A DNA stretch of 64,000 bases from a virus, in IMG/VR virus record IMGVR_UViG_3300046673_000306, positions 42,546-106,545 of that record; one strand, 5' to 3'. A program made the position numbers and the translations under genes. Each line of letters opens with the position of its first letter. Position 1 is the stretch's first letter. The notes beneath the pieces were generated by a model, which made no database searches, had not been told where the DNA came from, and was given only the letters and a program-made list of their open reading frames with translations. Below, in pieces: positions 47,672 to 64,000 of the stretch.

Positions 47672-48553
47672 TTAGAACGGAACGAAGGTGGGTTTGCCCG
47701 TGACGTTGATCCGGGAGCAGGCGCGGGGGTTGACCACCGCGATTCCCAGTTCCTCGTACACGACCCAGCCCAGGCGCAGGCGCTCGGGCTTGTCCGCAGG
47801 GATGACGTTGACGTCCTGGCGGATCGGGATCACGCCCGTGAACTCGGGCTCGGCGATGACCCAGATGGTCCCGCGCGGCACGATCTTGGAGACCAGGATA
47901 TCCAGGGTCCAGAGGTGGCCGACGAGGCCGGTCTGGAGGACTTCCCGCTGGGTCACGGGATCGAACTGATCCCGCCCGAACTTCATGAGGTCGGAGTACT
48001 CGGAGAAGTTCATGACGAACTTCCCGGGCACGAGGTCCCATTTCCCGATCTCAGCGAGGCCGCTGACCAGAGCGTCTCGGGTCAACTGGTTGGCCACGGT
48101 CGTCTCGGGGTTCAGCAGGTTGCTGGACCGATCGATGGCGTTGAAGACGTTCCGGTCTTCCTCGGCCATCAGATCGAGCTTCGCGCGCTGCTGGGCGCGG
48201 TCGATCAGGTTGTAGCGGCGCTCCTTGACCTGACTGAACCGCACCTGGGGGTAAGACACGATCTCCCAGGTCCCGACGGTGATGCGCTCGCCCTCCACGA
48301 TCGAGTCCGGCGCGGAGCCGCGCTTGGAGACCACGATCACGGGGATTTTCACGTCCTTGTCGTAAACCGGCAAGGCGCCCTGAGGCAGGGGGTCCACGAC
48401 GAGGAGCTTCCGTCCGATGCCTTGATAGTCCAAGGACAAGCGGATCGGGTTGGCCATGCTGCTGGCCAGCGCCATGCGACCGGCTTCGGTCTTCAGCGCT
48501 TCCTCGATCAGGAACTCCTTCTGCTCGGGGGTCATCGTTGCTTGTGCGTTCAT
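47672..48553 (-). CDS. Major capsid protein (HK97-fold type)
   Basis: 293 aa from ATG 48553, with GGAGGAGG 5 nt upstream, the strongest site in the region. Features of HK97-like capsid proteins: helical N-terminal arm, E-loop region with KIPVIVVSKRGSAPDSIVEG, spine helix (DLMAEEDRNVFNAIDR), P-domain with LVSGLAEIGKWDL, and late strands GTIWVIAEPEFTGVIPI. Flanked by a probable decoration protein. Length suits a capsid protein without a large delta domain. Confidence 0.82.
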   Translation of the reverse strand: MNAQATMTPEQKEFLIEEALKTEAGRMALASSMANPIRLSLDYQGIGRKLLVVDPLPQGALPVYDKDVKIPVIVVSKRGSAPDSIVEGERITVGTWEIVSYPQVRFSQVKERRYNLIDRAQQRAKLDLMAEEDRNVFNAIDRSSNLLNPETTVANQLTRDALVSGLAEIGKWDLVPGKFVMNFSEYSDLMKFGRDQFDPVTQREVLQTGLVGHLWTLDILVSKIVPRGTIWVIAEPEFTGVIPIRQDVNVIPADKPERLRLGWVVYEELGIAVVNPRACSRINVTGKPTFVPF

Positions 48554-52565: not shown

Positions 52566-54701
52566 CTACGCCAGGATGGCCTGCGCGATCCCCATGTCCA
52601 GGAGGTTGCTCACCTTCTGCCAGTCGCAGAGGCAGTTCTTGTTCAGCTCGGACTCGGCCTCGGCCAATATCTCGGCCATGCGCGCCTGGCCCTTGACCTT
52701 GCGCAGCGCCGCGATCTTCTCCAGGTGCTTGGCCTTGGTGTCGGCGCCGACGGTGACCCACGACTCCTCGATGAACTCGACGCCGCGATTGTCCTCGGCG
52801 GCGAGCACGTTCTTCCACCCGGTCTCGGGGCCGCTGTACTGCTGCCCCTTCCAGTTCTTGACATGGGGGCAGTACTCGGCCTCGTTGTGGGCGACGTTCG
52901 CGCAGATCGTGCAGATGGAGTAGGCGACGCGGCAGTTGTGGACGGCCATGCCGTTGGCCACGAAGGACTCGTCGCCTTCCACTTGAAGGTCGACGACTGG
53001 TCCGTAGTACTTGACGATCTCTTTGGACTTGATCGGTGTCCAGATGCACCCGTCCTGGATGAATTTGTTGTGGTGCGGCCTCTTGGGCTCCACTATGGAA
53101 ACCTTAGAGACCGAAGAGAGCTTCTGGGAATAGGTGCATCCCACGGCGACCTGGAACTCCACGGTGTCCTTCCTCACGACGGAGTTCTTGGAGGGCTTGT
53201 GCTTCAAGACCTGGATGTTCGCGATGATCCCGCAGCGCGCGAAGATGGACTGGGCCTGACGCGCTAGGACCTCGGAGGAGGTTGAGTAATAGACCATCCC
53301 CGTCTTGGTCTGGAAGCCGTCGCCATTGATCATGGCTCCGAGCATCTCCATCTGGACGGAGGGGTCCCAGAGGGTGACCTCGTTGGACAGTGACTTGGTC
53401 TTGGCGCCCCGGCCCGCATGGTCCGTGAAGACCTTGGGCCAAACGCGATCGTGGACCTCCAGGTAGAGGCCGTTCCGTTCCTCGCAGACTCTGGCGTGGG
53501 CCTCTTTGCCCATGACCTTCTTGCAGAGGTTGGCGATCTCCTCGGCGATCTTCCCCTCATTGATGTTGAGGGCGAACCCCACCCCGGACATCTTCCCGTC
53601 CTGGGTGATGATCCAGCCCTCGGAGATGTAGTAGCCCAGGAGGCGCGCGAAATCCTTGTTGGAGAAGGTGCTGGGCTTCACCTCGGTGGGGAAGGGGATG
53701 CCCACGTAGTCGCCCACCTTTATGTCTGCGGCAGAGACGAAATTCGGGGAAACTTCGCGGGGCTCCAAGAGAGCGGTCCTATTCCTTTGGCGCTCGTACC
53801 CCGATTCCTCCATCCGCTTCAAGTGGCGCTGGTGGCTCATGCGGGAGCGCCACATGTTCTGCTCTTTCCTTCTCTGGGCCGAGATGGACCAGATGGGGTG
53901 GTCCCCCGTGAAGACCGTGGCGGTGAGGCCCTCGGCCTTGATCGAGACGACGGTGCCCTCGATCTGGGAGACCTGCACCGCCTTGACGATCTTGGGGCGA
54001 CCGCAGTGGGTGACGACCTCGACCCCGGGGATCATGTGCCCGGCCATCACGGTCTCCCCGGAGGCCAAGAGAACGAGGGATTCGGGGTGGACGGCGCCCA
54101 TCGATACGTCTGTGATGTATCCGCTGTCGATGCCCCGGACCAGCATCGGGTCCTTGGTCCGGTCCACGGCGAGCAGGAGTTCGACGCCCTTAACCCGATG
54201 GTTCGGTACCGCGTCGAGGATGATGCCGACGGCGTCAGCGACCTTGGAGTTGTTGTGGTCCTTATAGTTGCCTTTCCCGACGAAGGTCTGGTACACGCTC
54301 TTCCCCACCATACTGCCCTCTCGGATCAGGCGCAGGAGTTCGGGCTCGTTGGCGTCGTCCTTGGAGCCCCAGCGGAAGAGGTCGCCGTTCGTGTTCGGCC
54401 AGTCCCCGTGCAGGCCCATGACCCGGTAGAAGCTGAACTCGGGGTTCATCGGGGCCACGCGCTGGACGTTGATCGCCTTCTTGTAGTCGTCGAGCAGGGC
54501 CGCGTACTTCTGCGGGGCCTCGGCGATCTTCAGACCGAAAGCGGTGCGCTCCACGAAGTGGTGCTCGCACCGGGGCCGGACAACGCCCGCCGTCCGGAAG
54601 AGGGCGCACTCGGGGCAGGAGCCGTCGGCGCGCTCCACGACCTTGCCGCCGAAGGACGCGTACTTCAGCCAACCGCCGCTGGGGAGCGCGATCTGGTTCA
54701 T
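52566..54701 (-). CDS. Putative prohead protease interrupted by an Ala1 intein
   Basis: 711 aa from ATG 54701 (GAGGAAA upstream). Spliced length would be about 324. The extein has the order expected of phage prohead proteases: an N-terminal CxxC (C29/C32), H149 in K-D-H-N-N, VELLLAVDRTKDPML, then IDSGYITDVSMG with Ser200 as the likely nucleophile. Its C-part has C-T-I-C...C-P-H-V, a zinc-like cluster. The intein (52,935-54,095) inserts two residues after the putative catalytic Ser. It would cut scaffold and capsid precursors. Confidence 0.7.
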   Translation of the reverse strand: MNQIALPSGGWLKYASFGGKVVERADGSCPECALFRTAGVVRPRCEHHFVERTAFGLKIAEAPQKYAALLDDYKKAINVQRVAPMNPEFSFYRVMGLHGDWPNTNGDLFRWGSKDDANEPELLRLIREGSMVGKSVYQTFVGKGNYKDHNNSKVADAVGIILDAVPNHRVKGVELLLAVDRTKDPMLVRGIDSGYITDVSMGAVHPESLVLLASGETVMAGHMIPGVEVVTHCGRPKIVKAVQVSQIEGTVVSIKAEGLTATVFTGDHPIWSISAQRRKEQNMWRSRMSHQRHLKRMEESGYERQRNRTALLEPREVSPNFVSAADIKVGDYVGIPFPTEVKPSTFSNKDFARLLGYYISEGWIITQDGKMSGVGFALNINEGKIAEEIANLCKKVMGKEAHARVCEERNGLYLEVHDRVWPKVFTDHAGRGAKTKSLSNEVTLWDPSVQMEMLGAMINGDGFQTKTGMVYYSTSSEVLARQAQSIFARCGIIANIQVLKHKPSKNSVVRKDTVEFQVAVGCTYSQKLSSVSKVSIVEPKRPHHNKFIQDGCIWTPIKSKEIVKYYGPVVDLQVEGDESFVANGMAVHNCRVAYSICTICANVAHNEAEYCPHVKNWKGQQYSGPETGWKNVLAAEDNRGVEFIEESWVTVGADTKAKHLEKIAALRKVKGQARMAEILAEAESELNKNCLCDWQKVSNLLDMGIAQAILA
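52935..54095 (-). mobile_element. Intein 1 (387 aa, LAGLIDADG, begins with Ala)
   Basis: Block A reads AVHPESLVLLASGETV, where most inteins have Cys or Ser first. Block B is TGDH (His268 of the precursor). LAGLIDADG motifs are LLGYYISEG and MLGAMINGDG. Block F is VVDLQVEGDESF. It ends AVHN followed by Cys+1. Boundaries follow from VSMG|A and HN|C, with extein rejoining as V-S-M-G-C-R-V. Confidence 0.85.
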
Positions 54702-54929: not shown

Positions 54930-56693
54930 TCATTGCAGACCGTGGCGCTTAACCCACTCCTCGTGGGGCACGAACTCGCCGGTGTCCTGGTCCAGGAGCC
55001 AGGGGCTGGTCTCTCCCTCCATGAAGGTCTTGAGCGGGACGAACTCGTTGCGCTTCGGGTCCCACTTCCACTCGATGTCCGTCCACTGGTTCTCCTGCTC
55101 GGGCAGGCCCAGGCCGGGGCGCTGGCCCTCCGGGACGTCTCCGAGGTCCACCGGCGCCTCGGTCAGGCCGGGGTCGATGTCGCCGGGGGCGACCGTGACC
55201 TTCTCCGAGAAGTCCAGCATCTCCTCGGTCCGGTTGATCCGGAAGAGGCGGCACTCGCAGTTGTGCACCGCGATCCTGTTGGCGATGTAACTCTGCGACC
55301 CCGCGACGGAGATATTGTGGACCATGCCAGAATACGGAACCCTGCCCACTGACCTAAGCATTGAGACCACGCTGTTGGCCGCGACCAGGACTCTGGAGTT
55401 GGTGTGCGGGGGCTTACCGACCCGGTCCCACGACCACCTGTTGAAGTGGATCAGATAGTGGGGGAACTTTTTAGTTGATCCGGCCAAGCGATCCTGAGGT
55501 CCGGTGGGGGTCATGGTCTCGTTCATTAACACCGGGACGTGCAGGCGATCCAGCATCACGTACAGTTGGTTCGCCAACTGCTTGGAGTGAGTGGTGATGT
55601 ATATCCTCTGGGTCCTCCCGAGATATTTGTCCGAGAAATTCCGGTTGGATATGTGCCCGTCTCCCCGAATGAAGGCGTTGAGAAAAATTCTCTGTTTATC
55701 GATGGGCCACCTCATGGCCTCGGGTGCCATCTTCTTTTCACGCGCGCCGAGCCCGCCCAGTCCCATGAATATCTTGGTCCATTTTTTAGATGACCAGTAG
55801 ACCACCGTGGCGTGCCCGTTCTTCCTGATCGAGAGATGGCTATCTTGCTCCAGGCGGGAACACAGAGCCCCTATCCTATTCGCGAAATCCATCTCATGCT
55901 GGCCTATGGTGAAGATCAGGGCTATCCTCTCTCCGGTGCCCCTGTTGAGCCTCGTGCAACCCTCGGCCATCCAGTACCCAAATAGTTCCACCTGCTCGTC
56001 CGTTAGATCGCACCCAGAATTTCCTGACACCGTTGGGAAATAGACCTTGTCGGATACACCCCTTTTTCTCCGAACGCCTGCTTCGAGGTCATCGGCTGGG
56101 ACAAAATCCCAATCCGAGAACACAGTCCCGCCGGAATTAGCGTACTTCAAGTGGCCCTTCTGAGCGTAGACGCGATGGTTCGGTGTCAGCAATAGTTCCT
56201 TTCCGTCCCACGACAATAGGCTGACCAGGTCGCCCACGTATTTCCTCTTCGTCGTCCCCGTCACGAGGTGGGCCTCTCCGTCATGCCCAAGGACCGCGTC
56301 CCCTTTCCTGATGCTCTCTATCAAGCGAACAGAACCATCCGACATCATGATCTCCGTCCCCGGGGGCAAACAGTTGACGTGGCTCATCGTGTACTTCGGC
56401 GCGTTGTGCGTCATGTTCTGGAGCAGCCAGTCGATCTTGAAGCGCTGGCCGTCCAGGGCGAAGCACACGGGACAGACGCTACCCATCTCCTGCCAGAGCT
56501 TCTCATTCTGCCAGGGCTCGAAGCCGTAGCGCCACTCCACCTCGCGGAAACCGGCCTTGAGGAAGTCCTGGAGCACGAACGCGCTCATGTCGTCGCGGGC
56601 GGTCGCCAGCTTCCGGACCAGCACGGACTCGGGGAGCGCGAGCCGGATCGGCGCGCGCTCGACTGCCCTGTGCGGGTAGATGATCGGGTTCAC
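54930..56693 (-). CDS. MuF-like minor head protein interrupted by an intein, GTG start
   Basis: 587 aa from GTG 56693, which overlaps the upstream stop (GTGA). Spliced length about 216. The extein has the Mu gpF/SPP1 gp7-type core: C-P-V-C-F-A-L-D-G-Q-R-F (about 74-85) and, after splicing, M-S-H-V-N-C-E-C-R-L (family: H-P-N-C-R-C). The C-terminus is acidic and Pro-rich. The intein sits inside this last motif. Follows the portal, as minor head proteins usually do. Confidence 0.75.
   Translation of the reverse strand: MNPIIYPHRAVERAPIRLALPESVLVRKLATARDDMSAFVLQDFLKAGFREVEWRYGFEPWQNEKLWQEMGSVCPVCFALDGQRFKIDWLLQNMTHNAPKYTMSHVNCLPPGTEIMMSDGSVRLIESIRKGDAVLGHDGEAHLVTGTTKRKYVGDLVSLLSWDGKELLLTPNHRVYAQKGHLKYANSGGTVFSDWDFVPADDLEAGVRRKRGVSDKVYFPTVSGNSGCDLTDEQVELFGYWMAEGCTRLNRGTGERIALIFTIGQHEMDFANRIGALCSRLEQDSHLSIRKNGHATVVYWSSKKWTKIFMGLGGLGAREKKMAPEAMRWPIDKQRIFLNAFIRGDGHISNRNFSDKYLGRTQRIYITTHSKQLANQLYVMLDRLHVPVLMNETMTPTGPQDRLAGSTKKFPHYLIHFNRWSWDRVGKPPHTNSRVLVAANSVVSMLRSVGRVPYSGMVHNISVAGSQSYIANRIAVHNCECRLFRINRTEEMLDFSEKVTVAPGDIDPGLTEAPVDLGDVPEGQRPGLGLPEQENQWTDIEWKWDPKRNEFVPLKTFMEGETSPWLLDQDTGEFVPHEEWVKRHGLQ
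55260..56372 (-). mobile_element. Intein 2 (371 aa, LAGLIDADG)
   Basis: Starts at Cys108 (CLPPGTEIMMSDGSVRLIES, block A). Block B is TPNH (His173). LAGLIDADG motifs are LFGYWMAEG (237-245) and FLNAFIRGDG. Block F is GMVHNISVAGSQSY. It ends AVHN followed by Cys+1. All splicing residues are present. Confidence 0.92.
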
Positions 56694-57130
56694 TTGGCTG
56701 GGGGTTCCTGCTGCGGGGGCTGCTCCTGCCCGCCCTTGACCCCGGAGAGGTAGTCCATCAGGGCCTTGCCGTCCAGAATCTTCTCCACGTCCCAGGCCGC
56801 CGGGTCCTGGAGCACGCGGTTGATCAGGTCCTCGAACCAGGTCCGCATCCTGCGGTCAACCTCTGCGGCGTCGACCTGGGACCCGCGCTGGCTCAGGTAG
56901 TTGACCAGGGCCTGATACCGCTGTCCTGCGGCGTGGTCCGCCGGGGCCTTGGCGGTCTTGGCCTTGGCCATGCGGCCCAAGGACGCCATCTGGAGCTTGC
57001 GGTAGTCGAGGTCGGGGAGGTGGGTCTTCTCCGACATGAGGCCGGGGCGCAGGGCCACGTCCTCTGGGGAGCCGGTGCGCACGTCCTTGCGGTCTCCCGC
57101 GCCACGGTAGTTCTTGGGGTCGAAGCTCAT
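56690..57130 (-). CDS. Hypothetical head protein between portal and MuF-like genes
   Basis: 146 aa. GGAGG lies 4 nt before the ATG, which overlaps the portal stop as ATGA. The N-terminal half is basic and unstructured. A helical middle (about 70-125) and a Gln/Pro-rich tail follow. No family recognised. Possibly a portal-associated or internal head protein. Confidence 0.65.
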   Translation of the reverse strand: MSFDPKNYRGAGDRKDVRTGSPEDVALRPGLMSEKTHLPDLDYRKLQMASLGRMAKAKTAKAPADHAAGQRYQALVNYLSQRGSQVDAAEVDRRMRTWFEDLINRVLQDPAAWDVEKILDGKALMDYLSGVKGGQEQPPQQEPPAK

Positions 57131-60060
57131 GCCGCCTCCGGGAGTCCCTGACCGGCGCCCGCGCCAGGTATGGTCTCCGCCGCAGGCATGGGCGTGCCCG
57201 GGGTCGGGACCGTGGCCGCAGTCTCGCCCTCGCCGGGGACCGGTCCCTCACCGCCGCCGCTGTCCCCGCCGCCGCCGCCACCCATGGGCGGAGGGGCCCC
57301 GGCGCCGCCCGCCCCGGGCTTGCCTCCGGGCTTCATCCCCTGCATCGCGGCCTTCTTCTCCTCGGCCCTCTCCCGCTCGATCTGGCGCTTCTCCTTGCGG
57401 TAGTCCAGGCCCAAGTACGTGTAGAAGGTTTGCTTCGAGATCAGGCCGGTTTTGGCCATCTCCTTCATCAGGCCCTTCATCTGGACGTCGTCCTTGAGCT
57501 TCATGAACTCGAACTCGATGTCGGGGACGATGTACTCGTCCTCCCCGAGTTCGTTGCGGCGCCGGAAGTCCTGGGCGATGGCCACGGGCCGGAAGATCGT
57601 GTCCTTGATCCAGCGCGCCAGCATCTCCTGGCAGCGCATGTAGCGGTTGATCAGGACCTGGAGGCCGATCGACCCGGCGGCAAAGTTCGGGCCGGTGCCG
57701 CCGATCATGGCCTCGGAGCCCATGAGCGCGGCCATGATCTCCTCCCTGATCCACTTCGACTCCTGGTCGAAGGGGTGAATCTTCCCGGCGCTGGACACGT
57801 ACTCGACCGAGATCGCGTGGTGGTAGACGAACCAGGCGCTCAGGTCCTGGCTCAGCTCGTCGAAGGCCTCGCGCACCTGCGTCACGGCCTGCGGGTTCGC
57901 GGGCATGGTGTCAGTGCCGACCTTCACGAGCTTGATCGGGGTGATGTGGCGCTCGTACACCGCCTGCTGGACCCGGCGCACCAGGTCCTTGAAGATCAGG
58001 GGCTTGAAGGCCCGGAACATGATCGGGGTCCCCACGCTCTCGTACGGGCTCATCTTGTAGGCGAGGTGGCTGACCCGGAACTTGTTCAGGGGTATCTTCT
58101 CGCCGCGCGCGACGAGGTTGACCAGCTGCCCGTTCTCGATCTTGGCCAGGGCCTCGTAGAGTTCCTTGGGCTGGCGGCTGGCGACGATCCGCTTGAGGTT
58201 GTCGTCGGGGTCGAGCTTGAGGATCGGCTCACCGACCAGGGATGACTTCTCGACCTCGACGAAGTCGGGGTTGAGGAGGTTGAAGCCTGTCCAGATGCCA
58301 CGGTCGTCGTCCCACTCCCCGAAGGGGAAGACGTTGCCCAGCTTCCACCACTCGTGGCTGACGTCGCCGATAAGGTTGAGGCCCTTGATCACGTCGAAGA
58401 ACAGAATCTCGAAGAAGAGTTTCACCTTCTCGTCGTCGCAGACCAGGTGGGCTCCGGTCATCGGGAGGTCCGAATTGTGGACCACGATCGGGGCGCAGAA
58501 CGATCCGTCTTCGGTAGTTATGTCGTAGACGGTTCCGGAGAACTTTTTCTTCCGGACATCCCTGACCTTGACCAGGAATCCTCCGGGGGCCTCATGATAC
58601 GTCTTCCTAGGGGATCGAGCAGACTCATGCGCGATTCCGTAGACCTTGGGGAGCACCTCGGTCTTGGATGCGCGCATGTAATAGATAGGCTTTCTCTTCT
58701 GCCCGTCTTTCCTGGAGGTGATGGTCTTAATGGAGAACAGAAAACCCAGCCGCGCGGCCAGGACCTCCATTTGGTAGGCGAGAGTCCGCGACACCGTGTT
58801 GGACTTAACGCAGAATTCATCGGCCATGCAGCCGTCCCCATTGAGGTATCCGATCAAAAATTTCCTCATCCAGGACGATTCCCCATCCATGATCCACTGA
58901 GGCACTCGCTTGTTCTGTGCCCCGAGTCCAAATTCCGAGCAGAACCACTTGGACAGGAGACGCGAACAGACATAGACCTTCGCGCCGTGGGTCTCCTTGG
59001 TGATCATGACCTTCGGCTCCATCTTAAAAACCTTTCGGATCAATTCCGAGACCCTGGCGATATTATTGGGCTCGTGGGTACCTAGGCAGAAATAAATCGC
59101 GCCACCGTCGGAGTAGCCCTCGGCGGCCCACCACCCTCCCAACTCGCAGAGATCGTCATCGGCGATCACCTTACGAGGTATCCTGGACCCTGATTTTATA
59201 GACAAGATCGTGTCGCCCTGGACCTCCATCAGGCTCACCTTGTGAGACCTATCGGTTTGAGGGAAACCTACCCCTGTCTGATTGCGTATGGTCATGTCAT
59301 ATTTGACCGAGCGCTCCCGAATAAACTTGGAGAGGTCGAACTCCACCGCCTTATTGGTAGGAATTCGCTTGGGGAAGAACAGATAGTCTCCGGGCCTGAC
59401 ATCCTCGGCCCTAACCCAGGATGGTCCCCCGTCCGGCATCCATCTCCCGCAGTCGTTCCTGATCTTGCCGCACTTGTCCAAACGCGGCATGTGGTCCATA
59501 TAGCGACCGTGCACGACCCATAGCCCTTCGTTGTGGGTGACCTTCAACTCAGGTAGACAGAATGGCTTCACGGTGTAGAGAGTCCCGTCGTAGTGGTGGG
59601 ACTCCGCGTGCTTGACAACCTTGGCCCTGCCGTCCAAACCAGGTACCGAATCGCCCTCTTTCACGTCCTCAATGTTCACGACGTCGTTCATCGTATACAC
59701 TGCGGAACCGGCGGCGAAGCAGTGCATATCTATCACGGTCCCGACATAGCCATCCGTTTTATAAAAATGTCTCGCCCACTGGTCAATTTCCCGTGTCTTC
59801 GTCGGAAGCTGTAGGTTCAGCGCCTCGAACAGAGGGTGGTAGAACGACGGCGCCTGCCGGTGTAGGCCCGGCCTCATGTTCCCGAACTGCGACGCCATCT
59901 TCTTCATGCGCGCGCGGGGAATGTCCACGAGGGCGCTGCCGGTCAGCCCCGGGCTCACCGCGTTCTTGATCATCTTGAACTCGGCGTCCAAGTTGGACGT
60001 GACGAGACCCGACCCTTCAGGGGCGGGCACGCTCGCGGTCTTGTCGTTGGCGTCAGCCAT
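57127..60060 (-). CDS. Portal protein interrupted by an intein
   Basis: 977 aa; spliced length about 561. The extein fits a portal: N-terminal FYHPLFEALNLQLPTKTREI, D-G-Y-V-G-T-V-I-D-M-H at the splice site, wing/stem strands (LGNVFPFGEWDDD, DPDDNLKRI), clip-type helices MSPYESVGTPIMFRAFKPL and RRVQQAVYERHITPIKLV, and a Gly/Pro-rich tail. The intein (58,474-59,721) interrupts at H113|C114. It forms the DNA gate of the head. Confidence 0.82.
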   Translation of the reverse strand: MADANDKTASVPAPEGSGLVTSNLDAEFKMIKNAVSPGLTGSALVDIPRARMKKMASQFGNMRPGLHRQAPSFYHPLFEALNLQLPTKTREIDQWARHFYKTDGYVGTVIDMHCFAAGSAVYTMNDVVNIEDVKEGDSVPGLDGRAKVVKHAESHHYDGTLYTVKPFCLPELKVTHNEGLWVVHGRYMDHMPRLDKCGKIRNDCGRWMPDGGPSWVRAEDVRPGDYLFFPKRIPTNKAVEFDLSKFIRERSVKYDMTIRNQTGVGFPQTDRSHKVSLMEVQGDTILSIKSGSRIPRKVIADDDLCELGGWWAAEGYSDGGAIYFCLGTHEPNNIARVSELIRKVFKMEPKVMITKETHGAKVYVCSRLLSKWFCSEFGLGAQNKRVPQWIMDGESSWMRKFLIGYLNGDGCMADEFCVKSNTVSRTLAYQMEVLAARLGFLFSIKTITSRKDGQKRKPIYYMRASKTEVLPKVYGIAHESARSPRKTYHEAPGGFLVKVRDVRKKKFSGTVYDITTEDGSFCAPIVVHNSDLPMTGAHLVCDDEKVKLFFEILFFDVIKGLNLIGDVSHEWWKLGNVFPFGEWDDDRGIWTGFNLLNPDFVEVEKSSLVGEPILKLDPDDNLKRIVASRQPKELYEALAKIENGQLVNLVARGEKIPLNKFRVSHLAYKMSPYESVGTPIMFRAFKPLIFKDLVRRVQQAVYERHITPIKLVKVGTDTMPANPQAVTQVREAFDELSQDLSAWFVYHHAISVEYVSSAGKIHPFDQESKWIREEIMAALMGSEAMIGGTGPNFAAGSIGLQVLINRYMRCQEMLARWIKDTIFRPVAIAQDFRRRNELGEDEYIVPDIEFEFMKLKDDVQMKGLMKEMAKTGLISKQTFYTYLGLDYRKEKRQIERERAEEKKAAMQGMKPGGKPGAGGAGAPPPMGGGGGGDSGGGEGPVPGEGETAATVPTPGTPMPAAETIPGAGAGQGLPEAA
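58474..59721 (-). mobile_element. Intein 3 (416 aa, LAGLIDADG) in the portal
   Basis: Starts at Cys114 (CFAAGSAVYTMNDVVNIEDV). LAGLIDADG motifs are LGGWWAAEG and FLIGYLNGDG. Block F is GTVYDITTEDGSF. It ends VVHN followed by Ser+1. Block B reads T-H-N-E, so the usual TxxH His is Glu178, a notable departure. Confidence 0.9.
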
Positions 60061-60502: not shown

Positions 60503-62650
60503 TCAAAGCGACCCCCTGGAAGTGAGGGTTCCGACCACGCCAGCGCTCGCCTGGGGCATCCCGTTGACGCTGGTGACCGCGACGTCCGCCCCTCCGGGGG
60601 GCACGTCCATGGTCGCCACCTGCTTCCCCGGCCCGGGGCCGACGATGCGCTTGACGCGCTCCTCCGGGGTCTCGGGAGTGCAAGGGGTGTCCAGGGCGTG
60701 CTCCTGGCCGCACTTATGGCAGACCGAGAACGCCTCGCCAGCCCCCAGCTCGGGGCTGTCCGACGGCCACATCGCGTCTGCCAGGCAGAGGCTGCCGCTG
60801 AGACTGGCCTCGGTCTTCGCCGGGATATTCGCGTGCTGCTTGTCCTGCTCCTCCTGCTGCGTCTTCTTCCGCTCTTCCCGGTCCTCGCGCCGCTTCTGCT
60901 TGCGCTCCTTGTCCTTGTCCACGCGCTCGTGTAGGGCCTCGATCGCGTCGTGGAGCTGCTTGATCTTGACCGGGTCCTTCTCCGAGTCGAGCTGGTGCCG
61001 AAGTTCCTTGATCTTCGCGCGCTCGCCCTTGGCCTCCTGGGACAGTCCGTCCACGGGGTAGGCGATGATGAGGTTTCCGTCCTTCGAGGGTCTCGCCATC
61101 GTGATCCCGGTCAGGCTCTCGATCTCGGAGGTGACAGCGCGCGCCATCGTCCCCATCTGGCTGGCGATCAGGGGGTGGCGGAAGGCTTCGATGAAGGAGT
61201 GGCCCAAGGCCATAGCCGACACTTGGTATGGCACAAATTTATCGCACGGACAAGTGCCATATTTCAGACTCGGGTCCTGATATGCGCATGATCCCTCAGG
61301 CCCTGCTATATATGGAACTCTGTCTCTGCGAGCCTTCTCGGTATGCCACCCCAGATCATGACCACATTCTCTGCACAGGTTCTTGTCTCCGAACTCCGCC
61401 ACGATCTCGCGCGCGATCGACTGCGCCCGATCCGGCTGTGCCTGGCGCAGGGTCAGCGTGTCTCTGACCGAGAGCCGGACGTGCTCGGACTCGCCCTCGT
61501 ACTGGGGCGCCCAGATCACCATCTGCTGGGCCTTGGGCCACCAGTGGTTGGCGATGCCGCCGAGCTTGGCGTGCTCGCAGCCCCTGCACTTGTCGCGGTA
61601 GGTCTCGTGCGTGACGTCGGACTCGAACCAGACGCAGTCCCGGCACTTGTTGATGTCCTTGTAGATCGAGTTGCCGGGCTCGGAGTCGCCGGGGTCGCCG
61701 GAGGCGGCGGTCTTCACCGTCCCGTCCAGACCGGCCTCGGCGCCCTTCGCCGCCGCCTGCTCCTCCGACTCCTCGCGCATGGCCTCCGGGGTGTCCGGAC
61801 CCGGAAGCTCCGTGGTCGGGGGCATCCCGTCCCCGGGCATCCCCGGGGTCATCATCGTGTTGACGTTGAGGTCGGCGATGATCTCGTTGAGCATGGACTC
61901 GATCAGGAGCATCTTCGTGTGGACGCAGCGCATGTCGTCGTAGGCCTCGTCCATGGCCTTGCGGACCATGGCCGGGATGTGCCCCGCGATCGCCGACGCC
62001 GGGCTCGGGGTCTCCTCCGAGGGCGGCATCTCCGGGAGGCCGCCGTCCATGAGTTCGATCTCGGGCATGGCCGGGGACGAGGCGGGCTCGACCGCCCCCT
62101 TCTTCCCGAGGTAGTTGGCGGCGTCGTTGATCAGGAGGAAGGCGTTGGAGATGGCCTCGGCCTGGGCCACGGACATGTCCGAGGCCTTATCCCTCAGCTG
62201 CGTCACGGCACCGATCACGGCGTCGGCCTTGGCCGTGATCTCGCCGCAGAGGTCCGCGACCTTCTGGTCGCCTCCGCAGGCGCCGACCGAGCCCTTGACG
62301 CCCTCGGCCTGGTCCGCGATCCGGCTGAGGAAGTCCACGGCCTTGACGCGCTCGGCCTGGCTCAGCTGGGCCTCGGCGCGGCGGTGCATGTCGATGATGC
62401 GGTCGAACACGGACTCGGCCAGGTGCTGCGGCGCCGAGACCTTGGTCAGTCCCGCGACCTTGACCATGCCCTGCCGGATCGGGGCCTTGCCCTGAGTCTG
62501 GATGCCGTCGGAGAGGCGCTGGACCCGGAGGTCATCGGCGGAGGCCTGCTTGAGATTCGGAGCCCGGAGCCCCAGCTTGTTGGCGAGGGTATGCCAGAAG
62601 CTGCTGGCCTTGTCGTCGCGGCCTTCGGGGTTTTGGTAGGGGGTGATCAT
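60503..62650 (-). CDS. Large head-operon protein with three zinc-like modules
   Basis: 715 aa from ATG 62650 (GAGGAG upstream). The first 230 residues are helical and coiled-coil-like (QLSQAERVKAVDFLSRI). Three Cys/His clusters follow: C-R-D-C...C-R-G-C-E-H, C-R-E-C-G...C...C-P-C, and C-H-K-C-G...C near the C-terminus, with a long charged helix between the last two. No enzyme motif. Upstream of portal; possibly an internal head or portal-associated protein. An upstream start (62704) overlaps the previous gene. Confidence 0.6.
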   Translation of the reverse strand: MITPYQNPEGRDDKASSFWHTLANKLGLRAPNLKQASADDLRVQRLSDGIQTQGKAPIRQGMVKVAGLTKVSAPQHLAESVFDRIIDMHRRAEAQLSQAERVKAVDFLSRIADQAEGVKGSVGACGGDQKVADLCGEITAKADAVIGAVTQLRDKASDMSVAQAEAISNAFLLINDAANYLGKKGAVEPASSPAMPEIELMDGGLPEMPPSEETPSPASAIAGHIPAMVRKAMDEAYDDMRCVHTKMLLIESMLNEIIADLNVNTMMTPGMPGDGMPPTTELPGPDTPEAMREESEEQAAAKGAEAGLDGTVKTAASGDPGDSEPGNSIYKDINKCRDCVWFESDVTHETYRDKCRGCEHAKLGGIANHWWPKAQQMVIWAPQYEGESEHVRLSVRDTLTLRQAQPDRAQSIAREIVAEFGDKNLCRECGHDLGWHTEKARRDRVPYIAGPEGSCAYQDPSLKYGTCPCDKFVPYQVSAMALGHSFIEAFRHPLIASQMGTMARAVTSEIESLTGITMARPSKDGNLIIAYPVDGLSQEAKGERAKIKELRHQLDSEKDPVKIKQLHDAIEALHERVDKDKERKQKRREDREERKKTQQEEQDKQHANIPAKTEASLSGSLCLADAMWPSDSPELGAGEAFSVCHKCGQEHALDTPCTPETPEERVKRIVGPGPGKQVATMDVPPGGADVAVTSVNGMPQASAGVVGTLTSRGSL

Positions 62651-62664
62651 CTTGGTTCTCCTCT

Positions 62665-63978
62665 CTATGGAACGTATATCGGGTCGCCCTGGTCTCCGCC
62701 GCACATCATCTGGCTGTCCTTGGGCACGTTTCCGCCGACGTAGCTCACGTCCGTCTTCGAGACGTCGACCTGGTCCTTGTTATAGTCGTCGATAGTGAGC
62801 CAGTCCTTCCTCGGGTGCGGCGACTTCCGGGTCTGGCCGAGGGGGGGCACCGACTGCCCCGGGAAGTGCTGGGGCTCCGAGGTCGGGACGGCGGCCAGAG
62901 CCATGAACTTGACCCCGGCAGTGACCGTGGGCTCGGGACCGCCGCGCACGGTGCGGACGGCGTTCTCCAGGGCGTCGAAGCCCATGGTGAAGAAGCGGTG
63001 GATGGAGGCGACGCTGTCCAGGCCGTGGGCGTGGACCAGGCGTATGAAGGTGTCGTACACGGACTCGTCGTTAACCGGGAGACCGATCTTGCCCAGGACC
63101 GCGCGGAGGACGCGGGCGACGCCGAGGTCCCAGAACGCGCGGTCGACCACGCCCTCGACCCCGCTGGCTCCGGCGCTGACACTGGCCCGGTACTTCAGCT
63201 TCTGGAACAGGGGCGCCGCCTCCTCTTGCTCTTCGTGGATGGCCTCGTACTCGTCCAGCACTTCCTGACCGAAGACGACGATCTTGTCCTTGCCCGTGTT
63301 CTTGCCCACGACCAGGGCGAAGTGGGCCTCGATGGGCCGCTTGCCGATTCCGACCGTAGCGCTGTGCCCCGTCTTGTCCCTATATATTCTACGGATTCCC
63401 TCGATCGTGTCAATGTCCAGGGGCAGGGTGAAGAGCATGTTGTCGCCGCCATCGAAGATCAGGCGACCGCCGTGCTCCTTGACCACGTCCCCGATCTCGT
63501 CGTGGGCGTCGTGGATCGAGCGCGAGATCGCGGATGCGGCCTCGGGGTCGTCGGTGAGCAGCGTCTCCTCGACCAGGCTCCCGATGTTGTCGCCGTCGAT
63601 GCCGACGAAGACCTGGGGCTCGGAGTCGTCGGAGAGTTCGGGCCCGGAATCGTCGTCGTCCGCCGCCGCGTCCTTGTCCATGCCCGGAGCCTGGCCGTAG
63701 TTCTTGTCATACCACTCCCGGGTGTGGATGGGACTGCGCTCGCTCACGCCGGTGGTGCGCTGGAGGGACTTATCGACGATGTACTGCGAGACCAGGTTCT
63801 GCATGGTCTCAGTCAACGTCTCCTTCGTGTCTTGCTCGCTTACGTAGCCCGCGATCCTCTCCGTGAGCCAGTAGGTGGCGACCCCGATTTCGCGCTTGGT
63901 GAGGTTGAGGCCGCTGCGGACCAGGAGGCTCTGGACCTGGGTCTTCAGCTGGTTCCAGGAGACCTCGGTCTTGAACAT
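62665..63978 (-). CDS. Predicted nucleotide cyclase-type palm-domain protein (mCpol/GGDEF/Cas10-like)
   Basis: 437 aa; AGGGA precedes the ATG. Residues about 122-236 have the order of the mCpol (minimal CRISPR polymerase) palm: F-V-G-I-D-G-D-N-I-G (Asp128, Asp130), a long helix (about 144-169), R-L-I-F-D-G-G-D-N-M-L (GGDN at 177-180), then SATVGIGKRPIEAHFALVVGKNTGKDK. These are the metal-binding strand, the GGD hairpin and the G-x-G...GK end of nucleotide cyclases and Cas10. The first 115 residues are helical and acidic. The C-terminal 180 residues are helical, unknown. It could make cyclic or linear oligonucleotides. A dead structural relative is possible. Confidence 0.68.
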   Translation of the reverse strand: MFKTEVSWNQLKTQVQSLLVRSGLNLTKREIGVATYWLTERIAGYVSEQDTKETLTETMQNLVSQYIVDKSLQRTTGVSERSPIHTREWYDKNYGQAPGMDKDAAADDDDSGPELSDDSEPQVFVGIDGDNIGSLVEETLLTDDPEAASAISRSIHDAHDEIGDVVKEHGGRLIFDGGDNMLFTLPLDIDTIEGIRRIYRDKTGHSATVGIGKRPIEAHFALVVGKNTGKDKIVVFGQEVLDEYEAIHEEQEEAAPLFQKLKYRASVSAGASGVEGVVDRAFWDLGVARVLRAVLGKIGLPVNDESVYDTFIRLVHAHGLDSVASIHRFFTMGFDALENAVRTVRGGPEPTVTAGVKFMALAAVPTSEPQHFPGQSVPPLGQTRKSPHPRKDWLTIDDYNKDQVDVSKTDVSYVGGNVPKDSQMMCGGDQGDPIYVP

Positions 63979-64000
63979 GGGTTCGTCCCTGGACTCGTCG

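Follow-up and report, generated by a model that had tools for sequence, protein, structure and literature searches.

An mCpol-type cyclase palm encoded in the head operon of an uncultured phage-G-like virus

A gene for an mCpol-type nucleotide cyclase in a phage head operon raises the question of whether a cyclic nucleotide of the phage's own making is brought into the cell. mCpol is the cyclase of Panoptes, a bacterial anti-phage guard described in 2025 (PMC12657218, PMC12657230), and in these papers the effectors of Panoptes are held off by the mCpol product and freed once phage sponges remove it. Among the papers searched, these two deal with mCpol; their passages on its distribution concern the genomes of bacteria and archaea and mention no mCpol encoded by a phage. 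The DNA analysed here (the window) is a stretch of 64,000 nt corresponding to positions 42546-106545 of the IMG/VR record IMGVR_UViG_3300046673_000306 (G000, 106545 b), in which a sequence-only reading had predicted such a cyclase, encoded by an ORF at 62665-63978 on the minus strand. The ORF is present and carries the expected motifs in the expected order (G-I-D128-G-D-N-I-G, F-D-G-G-D179-N, and VGIGKRPIEAHFALVVGK, within residues 122-236). The right edge of the window is the end of record G000, and the mCpol gene (62665..63999, minus strand) is therefore truncated at its 5' end; because the homologues in L002 (98% identical) and L004 (49% identical, syntenic) extend about 35 residues further at the N-terminus (MDENYRTRISHQPDWLIDGLVKSAVFADESRDEPMFK...), the ATG at 63978 probably lies inside a longer gene. 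The gene encodes, all on the minus strand, a helical N-terminal region (63610..63999) that is absent from the relative L016, the palm domain (63271..63609), a post-palm helical region that includes a conserved QKLKYRAS (62866..63270), and a conserved C-terminal tail, FPGQS..SPH.R.DW..YN...VD..KTD..GG..G.PI (62668..62865), which is predicted to be disordered and is modelled with low confidence (low pLDDT).

The palm domain and its catalytic site

Residues 124-236 of the window protein are a true mCpol domain. The palm matched the Pfam mCpol profile PF18182 far beyond chance (E=9.6e-21, residues 124-236, 74.7 bits against a cut-off of 26.4), and the Cas10 palm2 profile PF22335 was also matched (8.1e-10). 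The NCBIfam mCpol model NF033576 (cut-off 40) was passed by both the L002 copy (51.4) and the L004 copy (64.1), and the chains of OptS, the Panoptes mCpol, in PDB (9MNR, 9NWN) were matched from sequence alone at 1.1e-6 (phmmer). AlphaFold2 was run on the L002 copy with a four-sequence alignment, giving pLDDT values of about 58-83 by block in the palm; the C-terminal tail and residues 1-35 stay below 50. The predicted fold superposes on solved OptS (Foldseek 8.5e-6, TM 0.79-0.80 by target, rmsd 2.5), and in the model IDGDN ends the first palm strand and GGDN forms the turn of the next beta hairpin, so that the model passes the check that the sequence-only reading had set for these two segments. 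A structure search of BFVD gave a single significant match, an uncharacterised protein of an uncultured phage, and no PHROGs family matched the window protein. Assignment to Cas10 was rejected on a TIGR02577 score of 18.2 against a cut-off of 79.4 (L002 copy), with palm 2 as the sole matched part and no match in the window protein to the HD, palm 1 or zinc domains of Cas10. A GGDEF diguanylate cyclase was also rejected, PF00990 not being among the matches of the window protein, and no GGDEF was found in record G000 or in the close relatives of the window. Profile, structure and tree thus agree on an mCpol-type palm in a phage head operon, i.e., mCpol rather than Cas10 or GGDEF. The enzyme is related to the component of CRISPR immunity from which cyclic-nucleotide alarm signals arise.

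In the tree, phage palms stand apart from Cas10 (split 100/99), and the viral mCpol palms form a single branch (95/93, with L016 left out). Since the tree contains only seven non-phage mCpol rows, a single phage origin of the viral mCpols is suggested, not proven.

Asp6 and Asp57 were shown to be critical in OptS (PMC12657218), and both of these metal-binding residues are intact in the window protein as D128 (codon 63595..63597, minus strand) and D179 (codon 63442..63444, minus strand). Among 17 aligned viral mCpol palms, which include the near-identical pair L189/L193, 15 keep both catalytic Asp residues across deep divergence, and a GK..GK motif is kept in most. The palm is the best-conserved long region between L002 and L004 (60%), and its pN/pS between the window and L002 is 0.08, a figure based on few changes. 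From the conserved residues the window cyclase is predicted to be active, and the viral mCpols are probably active in most of the phages that carry them. The base-selecting Ser30 of OptS (PMC12657230) is conserved as S152 in the window protein, and this conservation makes an adenine-containing product the first guess. The product may nevertheless not be c-di-AMP, because the position of OptS N34 is occupied by His in the window protein and three viral palms have Glu or Asp at the position of S30. An exchange of residue 30 altered the product mix of OptS, as described in the Panoptes literature, and for that reason the product of the window enzyme is not readable from its sequence.

The head operon and the viral relatives

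The phage of the window is a myovirus with a head operon of the phage-G kind, and the location of the cyclase gene in that operon, claimed from the letters alone, holds. Downstream of mCpol and on the same (minus) strand are a CxxC-containing protein of 715 aa (733-aa ORF; 60503..62650) that is conserved in syntenic relatives, the portal protein (57127..60060, phrog_16240, 4.9e-37), a head-operon protein that is the second conserved gene after the portal (54930..56693), the head maturation protease (52566..54701, phrog_18299, 1.9e-11) and the major capsid protein (MCP; 47672..48553, phrog_2522, 1.1e-80; 61% identical to phage G gp27), with tail sheath and baseplate genes further on. The portal, in its L004 copy, is 36% identical to that of Bacillus phage G. 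The portal, the 54930..56693 gene and the protease gene each contain an intein with a LAGLIDADG domain, and the L004 copies are intein-free. The part upstream of mCpol that is missing from the window can be seen in L002 and L004, where a zinc-ribbon ORF directly precedes mCpol and a paralogue of the MCP lies further upstream; this paralogue (331 aa; L002:26-1087, G003 77534-78529) scores 1.9e-6 with NF042927, below the cut-off, and is possibly a vertex protein. The system was also compared with Panoptes and was rejected as a member of it: no OptE/2TM-beta effector adjoins the gene, its neighbours are head genes, and no defence profile was matched in the five ORFs neighbouring mCpol.

The order zinc ORF, mCpol, 715/733-aa ORF and portal recurs in L002/L003, L004 and L184 (IMG/VR), all of which keep both Asp residues. 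Further viral mCpols came from scans with wider alignments, and at least 12 other uncultured viruses have related mCpols among their particle genes. In eight contigs mCpol stands before the tail terminator and sheath genes; a shared virion structural gene precedes it in seven of the eight, and in two of these so does a head protease. L185 has mCpol upstream of the sheath gene, the mCpol of L193 adjoins a baseplate gene (L189 has a near-identical palm), and in L174/L180 it lies beside a zinc-ribbon ORF, in a neighbourhood in which profiles identified no virion gene. In L173/L181 the mCpol protein is encoded between an MCP-family gene and the tail sheath, in a head-tail cluster, as a protein of 1992 aa (L173:3682-9660) with ligase, mCpol, canonical GGDEF, primase-polymerase, sigma-like and LigD 3'-phosphoesterase domains. 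In form it resembles the 'polyvalent' proteins that are predicted to be injected, whose GGDEF domains were previously proposed (PMC5512222) to disturb host nucleotide signals; the window protein, with its one enzymatic domain, does not have this multi-domain form. A GGDEF protein (PF00990, 7.6e-18) is also encoded in L100 (2737-3441) between a scaffold-like gene and an MCP gene whose product is 49% identical to that of the window. No close relative was found by tblastn with the window, L016, clade-B and L174 palms among 50,697 isolated-phage records, and the genome-contig scan with the window palm gave no match. Neither phage G nor any of 48 other records with a related MCP, many of which are fragments, had an mCpol over the cut-off, so mCpol is not general in the phage-G-type head family.

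Two relatives have an altered catalytic site. In L016 the zinc ORF is followed by mCpol and orf733, and the portal lies 2.2 kb beyond; the mCpol protein of L016 lacks the N-terminal 120 residues, and its palm keeps the first Asp and has Thr in place of D57. Identity is down to 26-29% in the L016 palm and is 44-55% in the tail (about 55% to L002), and the fold is kept (TM 0.76 to OptS). The other is an isolate, Myxococcus phage Mx1, whose mCpol-like palm (WNM70340.1, L203:11964-13370 = OR576727.2 33963-35369) matches the phage mCpol profile at E 1.8e-15 with both catalytic Asp residues lost, at a place syntenic to clade B; it surfaced only via its tail sheath and a profile, not by tblastn.

A [hydrophobic]-K-x-A pattern recurs at the N-termini of head-operon proteins in the phage group of the window and in phage G (e.g., GGWLKYASFGG in 52566-54701 and FKMIKNAVSP in 57127-60060). 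K-x-A-[AS] was found near the N-termini of 7/21 phage G head proteins and 2/56 controls (Fisher 0.001), and K-[EKTV]-A-[QSGAW] occurs six times in the 1992-aa protein against 0.5 expected, mostly between domains; both patterns were chosen after inspection. In L002 and L004 a K-x-A falls within the extra N-terminal stretch, and in the 1992-aa protein one directly precedes the mCpol domain; the window protein has a weak version, LVKSAV instead of KxA[AS]. The motif is a possible maturation-protease site, kept as a lead only because the pattern was defined after the sequences had been looked at.

Possible roles of the cyclase

We tentatively favour, at somewhat less than even confidence, a catalytically competent virion-module cyclase of a phage-only branch that is packaged, injected and acts on host nucleotide-sensing defence. 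The cyclase would be made late, together with the head proteins, dock on the head via the conserved tail and/or the N-terminal region, and enter the next host cell along with the DNA, where the palm (a dimer in OptS) would make a cyclic dinucleotide; this may serve as a decoy for the host's nucleotide-sensing defence or keep a nucleotide-restrained effector quiet. We infer the packaging from the gene position and the post hoc motif, and both product and host target are put forward as conjecture. Conservation of the catalytic site over a range of viral palms favours an enzyme, and its loss in two lineages in which the place of the gene (and in L016 the tail) is kept points also to a non-catalytic tie to the particle; a virion-associated cyclase is the simplest account of both. 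Since the mCpol product holds Panoptes effectors off, a phage-borne mCpol could hypothetically do the same. The wider proposal that several tailed-phage lineages inject a particle-borne mCpol, whose nucleotide, made before phage expression, silences Panoptes-type suicide effectors or the receptors of CBASS or type III systems, we regard as doubtful.

Of the roles put forward by the sequence-only reading, decoy or counter-defence and carriage in the virion stay conjectural but are favoured by the repeated presence of mCpol among virion genes, and the third, adaptation of the fold as a structural part, survives in part. It is unlikely for the viral family at large, in which the two Asp residues are nearly always kept, and likely, as a purely structural role, for L016 and Mx1, which keep the fold without catalysis. 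For the window protein itself, such exaptation would make it a minor protein of the head or neck that uses the palm as a folding module, in which the docking tail matters and catalysis is vestigial. L016, with gene, fold and tail retained around a diverged palm that has lost D57, and Mx1, without either Asp at a syntenic place, speak for it; vestigial sites would not be expected to be kept as widely as the Asp pair and GK..GK are across several gene arrangements, nor the palm to be the best-conserved long region, and we hold it to be rather unlikely. The same conserved site would also fit a late cyclase that stays unpackaged and whose nucleotide blocks activation of Panoptes-type or other guarded effectors after the phage has degraded or bound cyclic nucleotides, or tunes host signalling during assembly. 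Since Panoptes effectors are held off by mCpol product until phage sponges remove it (PMC12657218, PMC12657230), a product made by the phage could hold them off; we think this scheme unlikely, as it leaves unexplained the position among virion genes and the tail shared with a catalytically altered copy.

A signal of the c-di-GMP/c-di-AMP type that alters how the newly infected cell grows, moves or displays receptors, rather than counter-defence, could be read from the canonical GGDEF fused to mCpol in L173 and the separate GGDEF protein in L100. The absence of GGDEF from the record of the window and from close relatives argues against such a signal, as does the membership in defence systems of the mCpols studied to date, and it seems improbable here. 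Least probable is a phage-borne guard of the Panoptes kind that would exclude superinfecting phages, with the cyclase paired to a toxic effector encoded by one of its neighbours and so far unrecognised: Panoptes mCpol does make a nucleotide that inhibits its partner effector (PMC12657218), but the five neighbours match no defence profile and are structural and conserved as such. Recurrence of related enzymes in particle-gene clusters suggests that phages use a defence-type cyclase themselves. A phage-only mCpol branch that retains its active site and is encoded among the virion genes of several phage groups is new and reverses the usual roles, and under the wider proposal held doubtful above, the injected mCpol would be a defence enzyme turned antidote.

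Comparison with known systems

The window protein and OptS of Panoptes (PDB 9MNR, 9PD0, 9NWN) share the palm fold (TM as above for the L002 copy), both catalytic Asp residues, the base-selecting Ser and a GK-rich region after the fourth strand. Unlike OptS, the window protein is encoded in a phage head operon, comprises 440+ aa, including a tail and additional N-terminal and helical regions, carries GGDN instead of AADG, has no OptE partner and is 22% identical. With the second palm of Cas10 (Csm1/Cmr2 of type III CRISPR) it shares the superfamily and the DGD and GGD motifs, whereas it is without the HD, palm 1 and zinc domains, scores under the Cas10 cut-off and belongs to a separate branch. 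The polyvalent GGDEF phage proteins (PMC5512222) have cyclase domains for which injection together with the phage DNA is proposed, and L173 is of the same multi-domain type; the window protein differs in its single enzymatic domain, an mCpol, no mCpol being reported in the passages drawn on here. The head operon of Bacillus phage G is like that of the window in MCP, portal and the order portal-protease-MCP, but the phage G record is without mCpol. WNM70340.1 of Mx1 likewise has an mCpol-like palm and, unlike the window protein, has lost both Asp residues and lies in another head module. Mx1 and the catalytically altered relatives make it possible to compare, as found in nature, a fold used as an enzyme with the same fold used structurally.
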